From: Gemmatimonadota bacterium
Lineage (GTDB): Bacteria > Gemmatimonadota > Gemmatimonadetes > Longimicrobiales > Gaopeijiaceae
Assembly (NCBI GenBank): GCA_022560615.1
Contig: JADFSR010000028.1
Location: 1-59,015, forward strand
Direction of reading: 5' to 3'
Length of the DNA: 59,015 nt
Shown: piece after piece, positions 51,065 to 59,015 of the stretch
Layout of the letters: each line of letters begins with the position of its first letter
Position numbering within the stretch: position 1 is the first letter of the stretch
Program-made: the position numbers and the translations under genes
Notes under the pieces: generated by a model
Told to the model about the DNA's origin: nothing
Database searches by the model: none
Seen by the model: only the letters and a program-made list of their open reading frames with translations

Positions 51065-51427
51065 AAGGGTGATCGGAAAGGGGGGTGGGCCGCGCACATG
51101 GTGCTTGCGCGCGTTCAGGCAAGGAACGACGAGGAGTCGTAGCCGAGCGGGCACCGCCGCCGAAGGCGGTGGTCCGACGAGGAGAGACGCAGGATCAACC
51201 GCGCAACCGCCATGTGCCCAACATCATGGTTGATATGATCTTACGCCTCTGTGGGTTGGGGTGCACGGCCCCATCTCCGTCGTTGGAGCGTCTCGGAGGA
51301 GCTACGGCTACGCCTTCGCCCCTCCGCGACCCGCGCAATGCGCGGGTGCCCTCTGGGGCCGTGGCACCCGGGGACCCGTGCGACAGCACGGGTGGCGGCC
51401 CGCCCCCCTTTCCGATCACCCTTCTAG
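51061..51427. mobile_element. 367-bp MITE-like element with 31-bp inverted ends
   Basis: Left end CTAGAAGGGTGATCGGAAAG (51061-51091) and right end, its inverse (51397-51427), differ in one base of 31. The interior includes GGCACCGCC-gccgaa-GGCGGTG and CCCGTGC-gaca-GCACGGG hairpins. It has no transposase gene. A second, inverted copy is at 58683 to the window end. Both ends begin CTAG, which provides TAG stops to the flanking frames (51062-51064 plus strand; 51424-51426 minus strand). Confidence 0.75.
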
Positions 51428-51915
51428 GCTTCCTCGGCAGGCGCACCATTGTTGACCGTCACCTTCTCCATCACGACGTCTTCGCGCGGCCGATCACCGG
51501 GGTTCGTGTCAACGACGCCGATCGCTTCCACGATGTCGAGTCCGGTCGTCACTTTTCCGAAGATCGCGTGCTTGCCGTCTAGCCACGGGGTCGCGGCCAG
51601 AGTGATGAAGAACTGGGAGCCGCCGGTGTCGGCGCCAGAGTTCGCCATCGAGAGGATTCCCGTGTGGGTGTGGGCGAGCCCTGGAGCGAACTCATCGGGA
51701 ATATTGTAGCCCGGACCACCGGTGCCGGTCCCCGTCGGGTCGCCGCCCTGGATCATGAATCCGCTGATCACGCGGTGGAAGATGATGCCGTCGTAGTAGC
51801 CTTTTCGCGCGAGCTTGAGGAAGTTGCCGGCCGTCTTGGGCGCGACATCCTCGAACATCTCCGCTGTGAACGTTCCGTGGTTCGTCTCAAACGTGACCAT
51901 GGGGTTGGCCATCAT
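51424..51915 (-). CDS. cyclophilin-type peptidyl-prolyl cis-trans isomerase (163 aa)
   Basis: The cyclophilin core is complete: VTFETNHGTFTAEMFEDVAP, YDGIIFHRVISGFMIQGGDP, GYNIPDEFAPGLAHTHTGIL, SMANSGADTGGSQFFITLA and WLDGKHAIFGKVTTG. The active-site residues (R in FHRV, F and Q in GFMIQGG, F/ITL) are present. No signal peptide, so cytosolic. The end PAEEA is followed by TAG that comes from the inserted repeat element, so the natural C-terminus may have been slightly different. Confidence 0.93.
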   Translation of the reverse strand: MMANPMVTFETNHGTFTAEMFEDVAPKTAGNFLKLARKGYYDGIIFHRVISGFMIQGGDPTGTGTGGPGYNIPDEFAPGLAHTHTGILSMANSGADTGGSQFFITLAATPWLDGKHAIFGKVTTGLDIVEAIGVVDTNPGDRPREDVVMEKVTVNNGAPAEEA

Positions 51916-52015: not shown

Positions 52016-53962
52016 ATGACAAGACTGGTCCGCTGTTGGGCGGTCGCCGCGATGTTCGCGAGCGCCTGCACGCCAGCCCTCAGGCTGACCCCCAGTGACG
52101 CCTCGGTGGTCCTCTCCCATCAAGTGCTCGACGCAGCGGATCCAGGTCAGCCCGGTCCGCGTGAGGTGCGCACGCTCTACTACGGCAGCGGCACTGACAA
52201 GAACCGGCCCGAGTACCGTGACTCGGTCGCGATCACGACAGAGCCTGTCGACGCCTCCAAGCTCGTCAGCCTCGGGGGTTCCGCGAGCAGTCGGAACTCT
52301 TACTGGGGCTTCACGCCCAAGGAGATGCCGCTCAACGCACGCGTCTGGTATCCGGAGGGTGACGGTCCTTTTCCGCTCGTCCTCGTGGTGCACGGCAACC
52401 ACAACATGCGTGATTTCTCGGACCCGGGTTACGACTACCTCGGGGAGTTACTCGCCAGCCGTGGGTACATCCTCGCGAGCGTGGACGAGAACTTCATCAA
52501 CGGTGGCATCCGGGGAGAGAACGACGCGCGCGGCTGGTTCCTTCTGAAGCACCTGGAGCTGTTCAAGGGCTTCAACGAGGAGGAGGGCAATGCGTTCGAG
52601 GGAAAGGTCGACATGAGCAACATCGCGCTCATGGGCCATTCTCGGGGCGGCGAAGCCGTGGCGAATGCCGCCGCTTTCAACAAGCTCACGCACTATCCCG
52701 ACGATGCATCGCTGAGGTTCGACTTCGACTTCGACATCAAGGGCATCGTCTCGATCGCGCCCGTCGACGGCCAGTACTTGCCCACCGGTCGCAAGGTCGT
52801 CGTCGAGGACATGAGCTATCTCACGTTTCACGGCTCGCACGATGGGGACGTGACGAGCTTCCACGGGTTGCGCATCTACGACCGGCTGAAGTTCAACGAA
52901 TCGGACGACTTCCACTTCAAGTCGGCGGTCTACGTGTACCGCGCGAACCACGGACAGTGGAACAGCGTCTGGGGATCGGGCGACAGCGGTCCGCGTAGCG
53001 CGCGCACGCTCGACCTGCGTGGCCTGATCCCGGAAGAGGATCAGCGCCGCTTCGCCGAGATCTACATCTCGGCGTTCCTGGAGGTGGTGCTGAAGGGCAA
53101 CAAGGAGTATCTGCCCATCTTCCGAGACCACCGGGTCATCGGGCAGTGGTTGCCCAATACGATGTACATCACGCGCTTCGAGACGAACGCCTTCCGGCCA
53201 CTCGCGACGTTCGAAGAGGACATCGACGTGACCCGAGGCACCGAGGATGGCGTGACGCTGCGGGGAGACTCACTAGCGACGTGGAAGGAGTCGACGCTGC
53301 TGCTCCGCTCCTCGAACCGGGAGAACACATCGAGCTCACAGGAGAACCAGGCGGTGACGCTCGGTTGGAACAACCGTATCACCGGTTCCGACACCACGCG
53401 CCATGGCCCGGCCGCGTCGTACACGGTCGAGTTGAATGGGCGCCTCGCGGCGCGATGGGCGCTCGGGCGGCAGCATTCGCTCGAGTTCATGCTCGGTCCC
53501 ACGAACTCGATGCCGGGACCGCGTCGAGATCCCTCGCCGGACACGGCATCCACGGCGGACGAGGAGGACCGCGATGAGCCCGACGATCGAGGAGGTCGCG
53601 GCAGCGATGATGACGGCGACAAGCCGCCCGTCGACCTCAGCATCGAGCTCGCAGACGCTGCGGGAAGAGTCGCGAGCGTCAGACTAGGCGACTATGGTGC
53701 GATACGTCGCCCGCTGGAGACGTACATACTGCGGCGAGGCGACCAGGAGGCCTCACGCTTCAGGGATCACTGGGAGTTGATCCTCCAGACGTACTCCATT
53801 CCGCTTGCGGACTTCGTCGAGGAGAACGAGTCGCTCGATCTCCGGCAGCTCACCGAGATTCGGTTCGTGTTCGACCGTGTGCATGCCGGCGAGGTGGTCG
53901 TGGACCAGATCGGCATCAGTGAGTTGGAGCCAGGCTTTCTGAGTGCACGAGTAGAGCGCTGA
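52016..53962 (+). CDS. large alpha/beta-hydrolase lipoprotein (648 aa)
   Basis: The N-terminus is a lipoprotein signal (MTRLVRCWAVAAMFASAC). Region 1 (about 90-330) is an alpha/beta hydrolase: GPFPLVLVVHGNHNMRDFSD, YILASVDENFINGG, the elbow IALMGHSRGGEAVANAA, then SYLTFHGSHDGDVTSFHGLR with an acid candidate and VYRANHGQWNSVWG with His. This resembles chlorophyllase/PETase-like secreted hydrolases. A C-terminal part (about 400-640) is beta-rich, with a very acidic Asp/Glu stretch (EEDRDEPDDRGGRGSDDDGD). It is followed after 2 bp by the asparagine-synthetase-like gene, indicating one operon. Confidence 0.8.
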   Translation: MTRLVRCWAVAAMFASACTPALRLTPSDASVVLSHQVLDAADPGQPGPREVRTLYYGSGTDKNRPEYRDSVAITTEPVDASKLVSLGGSASSRNSYWGFTPKEMPLNARVWYPEGDGPFPLVLVVHGNHNMRDFSDPGYDYLGELLASRGYILASVDENFINGGIRGENDARGWFLLKHLELFKGFNEEEGNAFEGKVDMSNIALMGHSRGGEAVANAAAFNKLTHYPDDASLRFDFDFDIKGIVSIAPVDGQYLPTGRKVVVEDMSYLTFHGSHDGDVTSFHGLRIYDRLKFNESDDFHFKSAVYVYRANHGQWNSVWGSGDSGPRSARTLDLRGLIPEEDQRRFAEIYISAFLEVVLKGNKEYLPIFRDHRVIGQWLPNTMYITRFETNAFRPLATFEEDIDVTRGTEDGVTLRGDSLATWKESTLLLRSSNRENTSSSQENQAVTLGWNNRITGSDTTRHGPAASYTVELNGRLAARWALGRQHSLEFMLGPTNSMPGPRRDPSPDTASTADEEDRDEPDDRGGRGSDDDGDKPPVDLSIELADAAGRVASVRLGDYGAIRRPLETYILRRGDQEASRFRDHWELILQTYSIPLADFVEENESLDLRQLTEIRFVFDRVHAGEVVVDQIGISELEPGFLSARVER

Positions 53963-53964
53963 CC

Positions 53965-55299
53965 ATGACCACACGCCTAGTCCCGCTCAACCGCGTCGTC
54001 GACCTGACCGACCACGACAAGAACGCCATCTTCAACATGACGGTCGACGAGGCCCGTGAGCTCCTGCGCTCCGGCCCCGCGCAGGCCGTAGAGACGATCG
54101 ACGGATCGTTCGCGCTCGTGAGCGTCGACGGCAGTACCGTTCGCCTCGCCCGCTCGATGGACCGCCCTCTCAGGCACTTCATCGCGAAGCTGGTCGACGG
54201 TCCGTGCCTCGTCGTTGCCGACCGCATCGACGCGATCCACGCCTGGCTCGCTGACAACGGCATGGAGAACCAGTTCCATCCGTACTACACGCGAATGGTG
54301 CCAGCGCATTACGTGACGCAGCTTCGGCTCGTCGGGTGTCCCGATCCGACCCCGACCTTCGAGCGCTTCTTCGATCCGCCGTGCGGCACGTCGACCGACG
54401 ACCTCGAGACCCTGGGCGAGGCGTACGTACGCGCCGCGTACGACGAAATCGAGAAGTGGATCGACCACCGTGCGCCCGAAGGTCCGCTCGGTGTGTGCTT
54501 CTCGGGCGGCATCGACTCCGGAGCCGTCTTCCTGCTCACTCTGCACGCGCTGCTCGAGCGCGGCGACGTGCCGACGCGTCTCAAGGCGTTCACATTGGCC
54601 GTGAACGGTGGCGGAGCCGACGTCGAACGCGCTCGCACGTTTCTGAAGCGACTGGATCTCGATCTGTACCACGAGACGATCGAGGTGAGCAGCGCCGATC
54701 TCGACTGGCGCGCGACCGTGCGCGCGGTGGAGGACTACAAGCCCCTCGACATCGAAGCCGCGACGATGGGGCTCGCGCTCGTGCGAGGCATCCGGGAACG
54801 GTATCCCGAGTGGAAGTATCTGCTCGATGGTGACGGCGGGGACGAGAACCTCAAGGACTATCCCATCGAGGATAATCCGGAGCTCACGATCCACAGCGTG
54901 CTCAACAACTCCATGCTGTACCAGGAGGGGTGGGGTGTGCACAGCATCAAGCACTCGCTCACCTACAGCGGCGGCCTGAGCCGCAGCTACGCCCGCACCT
55001 ACGCGCCCGCCGCGCTGAACGGCTTCGTCGGCTTCAGCCCGTTCACACGGCCTGGGGTCATCCGGGTCGCTGAGTCGATCCCGTTCATCGAGTGGACCGA
55101 CTGGGATCACGCCGAGCTGTACGACTTGAAGGGTCGCCTGGTATCGGCTGGCATCCGAGCGCTGACCGGTCAGGAGATGCCCGTATTCGAGAAGTGCCGG
55201 TTCCAGCGTGGCGCCGTCGAGAGCGATGTGTTCTCGTCTGCGTTCCCGACCGACGCGATGGAGTACCGCCAGGCGTTCAACGCGATCTACGTGTCGTAG
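53965..55299 (+). CDS. asparagine synthetase-like enzyme lacking the glutaminase Cys (444 aa)
   Basis: The C-terminal synthetase domain has the PP-loop LGVCFSGGIDSGAVFLLTLH (SGGIDS, residues 180-185), VNGGGADVERARTFLKRLD, the synthase acid in DLDWRATVRAV-EDYKP and LLDGDGGDENLKDYPIEDNP. The N-terminal half resembles a class II glutaminase (DGSFALVSVDGSTVRLARSM) but the protein starts MTTRLVPLNR, with no Cys at position 2, so glutamine hydrolysis is not expected. It probably adenylates a carboxylate and uses another amine or ammonia. Starts 3 bp after the hydrolase stop; its stop overlaps the next GTG. Confidence 0.85.
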   Translation: MTTRLVPLNRVVDLTDHDKNAIFNMTVDEARELLRSGPAQAVETIDGSFALVSVDGSTVRLARSMDRPLRHFIAKLVDGPCLVVADRIDAIHAWLADNGMENQFHPYYTRMVPAHYVTQLRLVGCPDPTPTFERFFDPPCGTSTDDLETLGEAYVRAAYDEIEKWIDHRAPEGPLGVCFSGGIDSGAVFLLTLHALLERGDVPTRLKAFTLAVNGGGADVERARTFLKRLDLDLYHETIEVSSADLDWRATVRAVEDYKPLDIEAATMGLALVRGIRERYPEWKYLLDGDGGDENLKDYPIEDNPELTIHSVLNNSMLYQEGWGVHSIKHSLTYSGGLSRSYARTYAPAALNGFVGFSPFTRPGVIRVAESIPFIEWTDWDHAELYDLKGRLVSAGIRALTGQEMPVFEKCRFQRGAVESDVFSSAFPTDAMEYRQAFNAIYVS

Positions 55300-56255
55300 T
55301 GGGTCCGGCCACGCTCGTCGATACCAATGCGTGGATCCGGAGCCTGAGGGCGCCCAAGCCCTCGTTCGATCCTTGGGTCCCTCAGGCGCTACAGGTTGAG
55401 GACGAGCGCGCACGCGACGGCTCGACCGCGTCCGTGGGCACGGTCTTCATCACGAACCGTGAATGCCCGTTCACCTGTCTGATGTGTGATCTGTGGAAAT
55501 ACACCACGGACGAGTCGGTACCGGCCGGGGCCGTGGACCGCCAGGTCGAAGTTGCGCTCGGACAGATGGGTGGCATCCGACAGGTGAAGCTGTACAACGC
55601 AGGGAACTTCTTCGACGACCGCGCGATCGCCCCGGAGGATCGTGAGCGCATCGCGAGGCGGCTGGGGCATTTGGACGTCGTGATCGTCGAGAACCACCCC
55701 AAGCTGGTCGACGACCGTGTTTCGGCGTTCTGCGACGCGGTCGCAACCGAGGTGGATGTCGCGATGGGGCTCGAGACCGTACATCCCGAAATCTTGCCTC
55801 GGCTCAACAAGCGAATGACCCTGGCGGACTTCGAAGCAGCGACGCGGCGATTGCGCGCCATGGGCCTGCAGGTTCGTGCGTTCATCCTCCTTCGAGCTCC
55901 CTTCATGTCGGAGGCAGAGGGTGTGGAGTGGGCGTGCCGCTCGATCGACTTTGCGTTCTCGGTTGGCGTCGAGTGCTGCTCGGTCATCCCGACGCGGGCC
56001 GGCAACGGCGCGCTCGACGCATTGGCGGCCGAGGGTCATTTCCTGCCACCGACGCTCGACTCTCTCGAGATCGTTGCCGCGTACGGCGTGGGCCTCGAAC
56101 AGGGCCGGGTCTTCGCCGACCTATGGGACGTCGAGCGTATCGCGACGTGTGACCGTTGCGCGGCCGCGCGCGTGGAGCGTCTTCGCAAGCTCAACCTCAC
56201 GCAAACGACTCCCCAACGCGTGCCATGTGACTGTCGCGAGACCCGTGCGGTGTGA
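55299..56255 (+). CDS. radical SAM enzyme (318 aa)
   Basis: GTG 55299 shares its G with the preceding TAG. The SAM cluster motif is ECPFTCLMCDLWKY (C56-x3-C60-x2-C63), within FITNRECPF. The barrel continues with VKLYNAGNFFDDRAIAPEDR, VDVAMGLETVHPEILPRLNK and VRAFILLRAPFMSEAEGVEW. The C-terminus has Cys pairs CDRCAAARVERL and PCDCRET, possible ligands of an extra Fe-S cluster. It resembles a family of unassigned (Elp3-like) radical SAM proteins found with oxidoreductases. Reaction unknown; tight overlap with both neighbours points to a common pathway. Confidence 0.87.
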   Translation: MGPATLVDTNAWIRSLRAPKPSFDPWVPQALQVEDERARDGSTASVGTVFITNRECPFTCLMCDLWKYTTDESVPAGAVDRQVEVALGQMGGIRQVKLYNAGNFFDDRAIAPEDRERIARRLGHLDVVIVENHPKLVDDRVSAFCDAVATEVDVAMGLETVHPEILPRLNKRMTLADFEAATRRLRAMGLQVRAFILLRAPFMSEAEGVEWACRSIDFAFSVGVECCSVIPTRAGNGALDALAAEGHFLPPTLDSLEIVAAYGVGLEQGRVFADLWDVERIATCDRCAAARVERLRKLNLTQTTPQRVPCDCRETRAV

Positions 56256-57741
56256 GGTCGCGGTCATCGGTGGAGGATTCGGCGGTACGCTCGTGGCCAT
56301 GTGCCTCGCCGCGCAGGGCCGTGACGTCATCGTGCTCGAACGTGATCGGCACCCACGCTTCGCGATCGGCGAGTCGTCCACACCGCTCGCGAACCTCGTG
56401 CTCGAAGACATCAGCAGACGGTACTCGCTCGATGCGTTGATCCCGCTCTGCCGTTACGGGACATGGAAGCGGAGTTATCCCGAAGTCCGCTGTGGGCCGA
56501 AGCGTGGATTCAGCTTCTTCGCGCACGAGCCGGGGCGCCCTTTCGAGTGGTTCACCGACCATCGCACCGAGCTGCTGGTTACAGCTAACCCGTCCGAAGA
56601 CGTCGCCGACACGCAGTGGCTGCGCTCCGACGTCGACTCGCTCTTCGCCAAGACCGCCAAAGAACACGGAGTGCGTGTTCTCGAGGGTGTGCACGTGGTC
56701 GGCGCTGAACGGGGGAAGGGCTGGCGGCTGACGCTCTCGCAGGAGGACACGGCCGAGTTGTCCCCCGAGACCACCGGCGGGTCGTTGTCCCTCCGCGCCG
56801 ACTTCGTGATCGACGCCTCGGGAGGTGCCTCTCCCCTCCCCGCGGCAGTGGGGCTCACCGATGCCAGCCAGAGCCTCGCCACACGGTCGCGCGCGCTTTT
56901 CTCGCACTTCGAAGGCGTTGCCCCCTGGCACACGATCTGCTCGGCGGCTGGAGGGACGCTCGCAGACCATCCGTTCCCGGCAGACGACGCGGCGCTCCAC
57001 CACGTAACGCCCGACGGCTGGTTCTGGATGCTGCGCTTCGACCACGGTGTGACGAGCGTCGGAGCTGTGGTCACCGACGAGGGAAAGAGTGGATCGGTCA
57101 GCGGGGAGTGGCAGGCGCTGCTCGAGCGATATCCGTCGGTGGCGGCCCAGATGTCAGCTGCAGAGCCGGTAAGACCGTTGGTGCGCACGGGCCGCTTGCA
57201 GCGACGCCTCCGTCCGGCGGCGGGACCGGACTGGGCACTGCTACCGGGAGCCGCCTACTTCATCGACCCATTCTTGAGCCCTGGCAACGCGCACACCATG
57301 CACGGCGTGGAGCGACTCTCTCGGATCTTCGAGTCGTGGCCGGACCGAGGCGCGATGGGCGTCCAGCTCGCTGAGTACGACCGCCGATTGCAGGCGGAGA
57401 TCGACTTCCTCGACGCTCTCATCCACGGGTGCTACCTGGCGCTCGCCTCGCTCCCTCTGCTGGCCGCGTTCACGATGTACTACTTCGCGGGAGCGATCTA
57501 CAGCGAGGAGCGGCGGCGAAACGGCACGGCGGAAGACGGTGACGGCTTCCTCCACTCGCATGACGTCGCGTTCCGCGGGCGGATGTTGGGGGCGTACCGC
57601 GATCTCGTTGGCATGACGGGTGGGTCCGTGCACTCCGACGTCGTTGAAGCGTTCGCGAGTCGAGTCGCGACGGACATCGAGCCGTGGAATACGACTGGCC
57701 TCTGCGACCCTGGGCGGCGGAACATGTACCCCTACAGATAG
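56245..57741 (+). CDS. FAD-dependent oxidoreductase of the halogenase/GGR superfamily (498 aa)
   Basis: GTG 56245 (or 56227) overlaps the radical SAM gene. The FAD site VIGGGFGGTLVAMCLAAQGR (GxGxxG) and VIVLERDRHPRF are followed by IGESSTPLANLVLEDI, typical of tryptophan-halogenase relatives. Later come FVIDASGGASPLPAAVG and the hallmark region GWFWMLRFDHGVTSVGAVV, where halogenases have WxWxIP; here the motif reads WFWMLRF, so chlorination is not certain. LPGAAYFIDPFLSPGNAHTM is a second FAD motif. Likely a flavin monooxygenase, halogenase or reductase acting on the product of the coupled enzymes. Confidence 0.84.
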   Translation: MRCEVAVIGGGFGGTLVAMCLAAQGRDVIVLERDRHPRFAIGESSTPLANLVLEDISRRYSLDALIPLCRYGTWKRSYPEVRCGPKRGFSFFAHEPGRPFEWFTDHRTELLVTANPSEDVADTQWLRSDVDSLFAKTAKEHGVRVLEGVHVVGAERGKGWRLTLSQEDTAELSPETTGGSLSLRADFVIDASGGASPLPAAVGLTDASQSLATRSRALFSHFEGVAPWHTICSAAGGTLADHPFPADDAALHHVTPDGWFWMLRFDHGVTSVGAVVTDEGKSGSVSGEWQALLERYPSVAAQMSAAEPVRPLVRTGRLQRRLRPAAGPDWALLPGAAYFIDPFLSPGNAHTMHGVERLSRIFESWPDRGAMGVQLAEYDRRLQAEIDFLDALIHGCYLALASLPLLAAFTMYYFAGAIYSEERRRNGTAEDGDGFLHSHDVAFRGRMLGAYRDLVGMTGGSVHSDVVEAFASRVATDIEPWNTTGLCDPGRRNMYPYR

Positions 57742-57792: not shown

Positions 57793-58782
57793 GCGCCAAC
57801 GAACTCCGAAGCGGTGCGTCCCGGAAGCACCATCGACGTCCACGGGCTGGAACGCCCACTCCAGGGTGATGTTGTCGCCCCAGAACGCGAAGCCGAGACT
57901 CAGCCGACTGGCGTCGCCCTCCGGCACGCGCCGCGCGCCGATACGCGCCACGAAGGTCCGGCCACGGATTGGCCAGTAACCGATCTCGACACCGCCTGAC
58001 GGAATTGCCTGGTCACCCACATAGGTCAGGGCGCCCGTGACGCCGACGTCCAGGATGCCGACCGGCTCGCCGTATGCACCGACGCCGAACGTGACGCCAT
58101 CGGGCCGAGCCATATCGCGTCCGTCCAGGGATAGATCGCTTCCTACGTTGCGATAGGTGAGCCCGGCTTTTAGGGGGCCGAGGTCCGTGGCGACGCCGAA
58201 GTCGAAGAGCACGCCGGCGTCGCGCGTCGTCCCAACGCGCTGTTCGACGAGCTTCGTGGCGACGCCGAAGTCGATGCCGAACAGCTCCCGCGAATAACCG
58301 ACGGTCGCGACGCGTTCTGAGACCGGCGAGGGGCCGAGCGTGAACAAGTGATCCTGCCCGCCGGGAGCCGTGTCAGAGCCTTCGGCGGCCGCCCCGTATT
58401 GGAGCGTCTGTAGGCCGACACCGATGCCGCCGCCCAACCACTGCCGCGCGGCCGAGACAGTAGTGGAGCTGCTGTTTGCACCCCAACGCTGCAGGTCGAG
58501 CCCGAAGCCCGACGCACCGGTCAAGAGCGCTGGATGGTAGAACACGGCATCGGCGTGCCGAGCGTTCATCATGTATGCGTTGCCGAGCGCCATTGCGCGC
58601 GTGGAAGCGGGAAGCTCCAACACGCGAGGGAGGGCGCCAGCGGTCTGCGCGGCGCCGTTTGCCGTGAACAGGACGCAGTAGGCTAGAAGGGTGATCGGAA
58701 AGGGGGGCGGGCCGCCACCCGTGCTTACGCACGGGTCCCCGGGTGCCACGGCCCTATATCCTAGGCGGAGCTTCGAAGGCAT
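57790..58782 (-). CDS. PorV-like outer-membrane barrel protein with foreign 5' end
   Basis: The mature part reads ARVLELPASTRAMALGNAYM, HADAVFYHPALLTGASGFGL, and many antiparallel strands (GGGIGVGLQTLQYGAAAEGS, YSRELFGIDFGVATKLVEQR, GALTYVGDQAIPSGGVEIGY) ending SGTHRFGVRWR, like PorV/UPF0164-type barrels. The signal peptide has been partly replaced: ITLLAYCVLFTANGAAQT is preceded by residues encoded by the repeat element at 58683. The frame stays open through the element to 59007. The true start is uncertain; I give 58782 (ATG within the element). The stop comes from the 57741 repeat. Confidence 0.65.
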   Translation of the reverse strand: MPSKLRLGYRAVAPGDPCVSTGGGPPPFPITLLAYCVLFTANGAAQTAGALPRVLELPASTRAMALGNAYMMNARHADAVFYHPALLTGASGFGLDLQRWGANSSSTTVSAARQWLGGGIGVGLQTLQYGAAAEGSDTAPGGQDHLFTLGPSPVSERVATVGYSRELFGIDFGVATKLVEQRVGTTRDAGVLFDFGVATDLGPLKAGLTYRNVGSDLSLDGRDMARPDGVTFGVGAYGEPVGILDVGVTGALTYVGDQAIPSGGVEIGYWPIRGRTFVARIGARRVPEGDASRLSLGFAFWGDNITLEWAFQPVDVDGASGTHRFGVRWR

Positions 58783-59015
58783 AGCCGTCGCGGGCACCGC
58801 CGCCGAAGGCGGTGGTCCGAGGAGCTCCAACGACGGAGATGGGGCCGTGCCACCGCAACCCACAGACTCGTGTGTCCTTTCAGCCATGGTGTTGGGCACA
58901 TGGCGGTTGCGCGGTTGATCCATCGTCTCTCCTCGTCGGACCACCGCCTTCGGCGGCGGTGCCCGCTCGGCTACGACTCCTCGTCGTTCCTTGCCTGAAC
59001 CGCGCAAGCGCCATG
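58683..59015. mobile_element. second, inverted copy of the 51061 element (truncated by window end)
   Basis: It begins CTAGAAGGGTGATCGGAAAG and follows the inverse of 51427 toward 51061, with internal differences near 58740-58800. The far inverted end lies beyond 59015. Hairpin segments (CCCGTGC-ttac-GCACGGG; CACCGCC-ttcggc-GGCGGTG) are conserved. Its insertion point is inside the signal peptide region of the PorV-like gene. Confidence 0.72.

Follow-up and report, generated by a model that had tools for sequence, protein, structure and literature searches.

A conserved ligase, radical SAM and flavin enzyme cassette in a Gemmatimonadota genome and its co-occurrence with exported CRTAC1/UnbV-type proteins

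Several described systems share part of their enzymology with a gene cluster found in a Gemmatimonadota bacterium. In archaea, ArcS attaches a lysine to preQ0, forming an adduct that RaSEA then converts (PMC11298593). Quinohemoprotein amine dehydrogenase is modified by QhpD and QhpG, a pair made up of a radical S-adenosylmethionine (radical SAM) enzyme and an FAD monooxygenase. Beta-lactam and carbapenam synthetases are amide-forming ligases derived from AsnB that keep its ATP chemistry and PP-loop but have no glutaminase, the N-terminal cysteine being lost. CtcP, PltM and CmlS are FADH2-dependent halogenases. Finally, all enediyne clusters have five genes in common, E3/E4/E5/E/E10 (PMC5181780). 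In an annotated Streptomyces clavuligerus cassette of this kind the order is UnbL-UnbV-UnbU-PKS-thioesterase, where PKS is a polyketide synthase. E4 and E5 are taken here to be UnbV and UnbU. The stretch of DNA analysed in this work, the window, is the 59,015 nucleotides of contig 28 (JADFSR010000028.1) of a 4.5-Mb genome. It carries four closely spaced genes, A to D, of which B, C and D form a conserved, apparently undescribed three-enzyme cassette:

52016 to 53962, plus strand: A, an alpha/beta hydrolase lipoprotein of 648 amino acids with a lipobox-like MFASAC
53965 to 55299, plus strand: B, an asparagine-synthetase/beta-lactam-synthetase-like ATP-dependent ligase of 444 amino acids (PF00733, E=4e-13), without a glutaminase cysteine
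55299 to 56255, plus strand: C, a radical SAM enzyme, RaSEA/Elp3-like, of 318 amino acids with a GTG start (PF04055)
56245 to 57741, plus strand: D, an FAD-dependent halogenase/monooxygenase-like enzyme of 498 amino acids with a GTG start (PF04820, PF01266)

A preliminary description of the window had joined all four genes into one coupled set, and its account of their layout is accurate. All are read from one strand, two bases separate A from B, the TAG stop of B shares one base with the GTG start of C (TAGTG, 55297-55301), and the GTG start of D at 56245 gives an 11-base overlap with C, or a longer one from an in-frame start further upstream. The third-position GC content of all four is coding-like, and Pfam matches agree with the families it had assigned (alpha/beta hydrolase, Asn_synthase, Radical_SAM and Trp_halogenase/FAD). 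Between the four genes there is no space for a precursor peptide. No recurrent short open reading frame was recognised among the neighbours, in an analysis that included no search aimed at precursors of ribosomally synthesised and post-translationally modified peptides, and RNA families at curated thresholds gave no match within the window.

The order B-C-D is common to Gemmatimonadota, Planctomycetota, Acidobacteriota, Bacteroidota and a myxococcote, in dozens of genomes, and its recurrence is far beyond chance. Searching relatives with C recovered the ordered set at the level of the genus and of the family, and also in a second family of the order. When 84,980 species genomes were scanned, 80 loci were obtained from the four phyla above and others. 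Among 81 loci analysed, B is accompanied by C in 64 and by D in 56, with contig ends interrupting many of the remainder; at some planctomycete loci C, or C together with D, occurs without B nearby. The gaps between the three genes are short, frequently 4-base overlaps, and the genes are inherited together, the pairwise identities of B, C and D being correlated (r = 0.955-0.962, 46 rows). B is present in 30 of 298 Gemmatimonadota genomes, in one copy each, and C is found in 29 of these 30 B-positive genomes as opposed to 0 of 38 B-negative ones (positive and negative denoting genomes with and without the gene). In one genome (G230; genomes are numbered G, the window's own being G000, and loci L) B and C are both kept although 350 kb of a 5.5-Mb contig separates them. 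Conservation of gene order in several genera, with no match to a known cluster, had been set beforehand as the test of the proposal; ligase, radical SAM and flavin enzyme keep their order in many genera, and the libraries and papers searched do not name the set.

Gene A has another distribution. Conserved in its own right in the window's family and order, and mostly in single copy, it is present in many of their B-negative genomes, missing from most B-positive genomes and not found in the six genomes of other phyla that were tested. It lies near B in a few same-family relatives, and in one genome (G014) the spacing is about 420 bases. Because the junction of A with B is confined to the window and its close relatives, the four-gene reading is one gene too wide: it stands for B-C-D and is rejected for A, which is a chance neighbour outside the system.

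The nearest matches of the window with the C profile are Gemmatimonadota metagenome-assembled genomes. In a quick tree of 62 B proteins, built without bootstraps, the window's copy sits among planctomycete and Bacteroidota copies and apart from most Gemmatimonadota (SH-like approximate likelihood ratio support of 98), and the window's B, C and D share their nearest outside relatives (L014, L016 and L018). This placement, with the shared relatives, suggests that the cassette was acquired by horizontal transfer as a unit. No plasmid-borne B was found in PLSDB.

The catalytic motifs of the three enzymes are as follows, and those of the superfamilies to which they belong are intact:

54502 to 54522, plus strand: PP-loop of B, SGGIDSG, residues 180-186, with S180, G182, D184, S185 and G186 invariant in 48 aligned homologues
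54829 to 54849, plus strand: GDGGDEN motif of B, residues 289-295, invariant in 48 homologues
55464 to 55487, plus strand: CxxxCxxC cluster motif of C (C56, C60, C63), invariant in 46 homologues
56148 to 56234, plus strand: C-terminal four-cysteine motif of C (C284, C287, C310, C312), a possible second metal site
56269 to 56286, plus strand: GGGFGG FAD-binding motif of D, residues 9-14
56500 to 56502, plus strand: Lys86 of D, in G-x-K-R-G-F, in register with G-Q-K-S-N-F of CtcP and invariant in 53 rows
57259 to 57285, plus strand: FIDPFLSPG of D (FxxPxxSxG), with F339, S345 and G347 in at least 95% of rows

The AlphaFold2 (AF2) model of B (pLDDT 90) has its best full-length fold match in beta-lactam synthetase (Z 25.5, 376 residues aligned, 3.9 A), with which asparagine synthetases are tied within about 1 Z; carbapenam synthetase reaches Z 22.3. 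As in the beta-lactam-type synthetases, the fold of AsnB extends over both domains, the PP-loop is kept and the glutaminase cysteine is absent. B begins MTTRLVPL, and 0 of 62 homologues have a cysteine in the first six residues. Identity to the beta-lactam and carbapenam synthetases is only 13-21%, B is shorter, no clavam or carbapenem genes lie nearby, and the genes that accompany B encode a radical SAM enzyme and a flavoenzyme. Against the AsnB model TIGR01536, B scores 43.9 bits, below the curated cutoff of 267; its profile retrieves asparagine synthetases only, weakly, from the PDB, and single-sequence searches of the PDB found no close relatives of B or C. Given the modelled fold, the intact motifs and the lost cysteine, B should adenylate a carboxylate and take a substrate amine rather than glutamine. 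Amidation, one of the options in the preliminary description, is unlikely in the glutamine-using sense because the glutaminase cysteine is missing in all aligned members of the B family.

C carries the cluster motif and barrel of the radical SAM superfamily, and its AF2 model (pLDDT 95.5) matches radical SAM folds with Z up to 17, the best including queuine lyase, HydE, biotin synthase and Elp3. Its best family model is that of archaeosine RaSEA (TIGR01210), matched over the full length at 103.6 bits, below the curated cutoff of 212; judged by sequence, C is a distant, below-cutoff relative of RaSEA. At least four cysteines occur in the last 60 residues of 74 of 82 C homologues, the motif being missing from some planctomycete copies. 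An order of ligation followed by radical chemistry, as in the ArcS-RaSEA pair, is conceivable for the cassette, which unlike that pair is bacterial and has a flavoenzyme partner. Neither ArcS nor a transglycosylase was seen beside C, and no genome-wide search for either was made.

The best PDB sequence match of D is tetracycline 7-halogenase (E=1e-34), followed by PltM. D shares with CtcP, PltM and CmlS the FAD motif, FxxPxxSxG and a conserved lysine, Lys86, which is presumably equivalent to the catalytic lysine of flavin-dependent halogenases. It differs from them in the strict WxWxIP motif, which is replaced by GWFWMLRF in the window's D and by GW[WY]xL[RP]F in most homologues, so that halogenation by D is not assured. 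D also matches the QhpG protein-maturase model with 64 bits, below its cutoff. The cassette thus resembles QhpD/QhpG in pairing a radical SAM enzyme with an FAD monooxygenase-like protein, but it has an additional ligase, and no amine dehydrogenase subunit, protease or ABC exporter was seen alongside.

In several phyla, the neighbours of B-C-D include FG-GAP/ASPIC-UnbV proteins of the CRTAC1-like type, CRTAC1 being a human protein family, and a membrane protein of the NQR2/RnfD type. When assigned against the S. clavuligerus cassette, the CRTAC protein matches UnbV (28% identity) and the membrane protein matches the annotated UnbU (33%). To our knowledge, no biochemical role has been established for bacterial UnbV, UnbU or CRTAC1-like proteins. 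The largest partner is an exported TPR/FG-GAP/ASPIC lipoprotein (TPR-CRTAC), whose C-terminal domain, P0008, has no Pfam match.

This lipoprotein and the cassette co-occur tightly. P0008 is present in 26 of 30 B-positive and 37 of 268 B-negative Gemmatimonadota genomes (Fisher 3e-16) or, counted by genus, in 15 of 16 and 12 of 103. Among 199 Acidobacteriota genomes, it is found in 21 of 21 with a strong C match and 47 of 178 others, and 48 of the 50 genomes behind the fetched loci encode it. UnbU (E<=1e-50) follows the same pattern (18/30 B-positive versus 14/268 B-negative Gemmatimonadota), and P0008 is present in 31 of the 32 Gemmatimonadota genomes that carry UnbU. Physical linkage is frequent: in 14 of 26 Gemmatimonadota having both, B and a P0008 match share a contig and are no more than 12 kb apart, UnbV-UnbU-B-C-D are contiguous in G047, and in three Acidobacteriota (G466, G487 and G500) B-C-D is contiguous with TPR-CRTAC, UnbV and UnbU. 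In G487, D and the TPR-CRTAC gene are read from one strand and share a few bases, and in Dyadobacter luticola the latter gene lies 9 bases past D. In addition, multihaem cytochromes adjoin the CRTAC/UnbV module in some genomes, and major facilitator superfamily (MFS) transporters adjoin D in some Gemmatimonadota. Two P0008 subtypes can be distinguished, type I (EQxLKGSCP), which is present in every C-positive genome examined, and type II (DRK[GP][ST]SCP), which is common in Acidobacteriota without C. Type I also occurs in about 15 of 178 C-negative Acidobacteriota, an estimate from match starts rather than full alignments.

Because the cassette is nearly always accompanied by an exported, propeller-shaped lipoprotein, it probably makes a compound that works with that lipoprotein. 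The specific reading that is tentatively favoured here, at a little under an even chance, is that B-C-D encode a cytoplasmic pathway of ligation, radical chemistry and flavin chemistry, and that its product is either used or acted on by an exported CRTAC1/UnbV module consisting of the type I lipoprotein and the UnbV protein, often with UnbU. B would adenylate a carboxylate and join it to an amine, as its fold and lost glutaminase site suggest. C, by analogy with RaSEA, might then apply a 5'-deoxyadenosyl radical to the part that was ligated, perhaps with cleavage of a C-N bond, in which case the amine donor would lend only its nitrogen, and D would oxidise or halogenate the product with reduced flavin and O2. 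The product would leave the cytoplasm, perhaps through the neighbouring MFS transporter in some genomes, and meet the module. Several observations weigh against this pathway. The C-N cleavage step depends on a RaSEA match that scores half the curated cutoff, the CRTAC protein is also present in genomes without the cassette and is therefore not always dependent on it, and four B-positive Gemmatimonadota have no TPR-CRTAC match, two of these being 87-88% complete, fragmented assemblies. The p-values are not exact because the genomes are related rather than independent samples, the genus-level count being the sole correction. In the window's own genome, where partner genes were sought by targeted searches, the P0008 lipoprotein is on another contig (27) and UnbU was not detected, so that the window carries only the biosynthetic half. 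The contig 27 region (L094, 24001-44000) holds a CRTAC/UnbV-like cluster around a multihaem c-type cytochrome with TPRs and includes the TPR-CRTAC partner.

A more ambitious form of this proposal, about which there is considerable doubt, is that the compound made by B-C-D is a cofactor or ligand of a new kind, serving an exported redox module that is widespread (TPR-CRTAC lipoprotein, UnbV, UnbU and, in some genomes, multihaem cytochromes), and that the UnbV-UnbU pair is common to such modules and the enediyne warhead cassette. Alternatively, B, C and D could modify the type I lipoprotein (or UnbV) before export, on the model of QhpD and QhpG, with no free small molecule. The phyletic coupling, which is strongest with one exported protein, the QhpG match of D and the conserved LKGSC stretch in the C-terminal domain of type I all speak for such maturation. 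It is nevertheless judged unlikely, as type I copies also occur in C-negative genomes, no clear candidate residue separating them from those of C-positive genomes was noticed by eye, and ligases of the AsnB/beta-lactam-synthetase type usually act on small molecules or peptides.

The same low probability is given to an ordinary secreted specialised metabolite, such as a halogenated or oxidised amide, with shared habitat or general secretome content behind the CRTAC link. The resemblance of D to phenol and tetracycline halogenases, the MFS transporters and the patchy distribution would suit it, and the grouping of the window's B with planctomycete and Bacteroidota copies is what horizontal transfer would give. 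However, there is a single copy per genome, no regulator, resistance gene or carrier protein recurs alongside, the same CRTAC/UnbV genes are linked in at least three phyla, and the statistics hold by genus. Nucleotide or tRNA modification, in which C would be a RaSEA/Elp3-like tRNA enzyme of bacteria and B would ligate lysine or another amine, is quite improbable. The full-length RaSEA match, the fold of C near Elp3 and queuine lyase and the archaeal precedent of ArcS all point that way, but the score is half the cutoff, D is a flavoenzyme of the kind found in natural-product pathways, and coupling to an exported lipoprotein would not be expected. Least credible, and very improbable, is a four-gene pathway in which A releases or processes the product: the two-base A-B gap and the few same-family relatives with A close to B are outweighed by its distribution.

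Each known system considered departs from the cassette in a tested feature: AsnB in the cysteine and the cutoff, RaSEA in the cutoff, the strict halogenases in WxWxIP and the enediyne clusters in the PKS. Among open-access papers, none was found on the gene combination, nor any that deals with UnbV and UnbU alongside enediyne. On the basis of that literature and the libraries searched, the B-C-D system appears to be new, with a description elsewhere possible. Its parts all come from known superfamilies; the novelty would lie in combining amide ligation with radical chemistry and flavin oxidation. With no PKS, and with a CRTAC lipoprotein (in relatives also UnbV and UnbU) retained next to three recognisable enzymes, such a system in cultured bacteria would make the role of these proteins testable.

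Other neighbours, namely SusC/SusD, GH97, GH20, peptidase M28, tmk and DNA polymerase III delta'-like genes, were considered and set aside as lineage-specific context rather than core. In Holophagales (L057, L059, L062 and L080), B-C-D lies just upstream of thymidylate-kinase-like and DNA polymerase III delta'-like genes, as judged by a look at the sequences. In Schlesneria-type planctomycetes (L028, L030, L031, L034, L036 and L037), C occurs without B or D nearby and its other neighbours are conserved. In the window, inverted repeats flank A-B-C-D (51113-51238 and 58875-59000, 126 nt, 95%; 51356-51430 and 58680-58754, 75 nt, 96%). Copies are found elsewhere in the genome (L095, 4963-5309) and in a sister genome (L008), and they may be dispersed intergenic repeats or the edges of a mobile segment.

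The UnbV and UnbU that accompany B-C-D in relatives are homologous to those of the enediyne PKS cassette. The two cassettes differ in that no UnbL lies beside B-C-D, which itself forms the biosynthetic core, and no iterative PKS or thioesterase, present in S. clavuligerus, was recognised beside it in the window or the loci examined. On pSymA of Sinorhizobium meliloti T073 (L092, 5739-15355), homologues of UnbL, UnbV and UnbU lie directly upstream of a PKS-like open reading frame of 1911 amino acids, an enediyne-like cassette in a rhizobium that is unannotated in the record.

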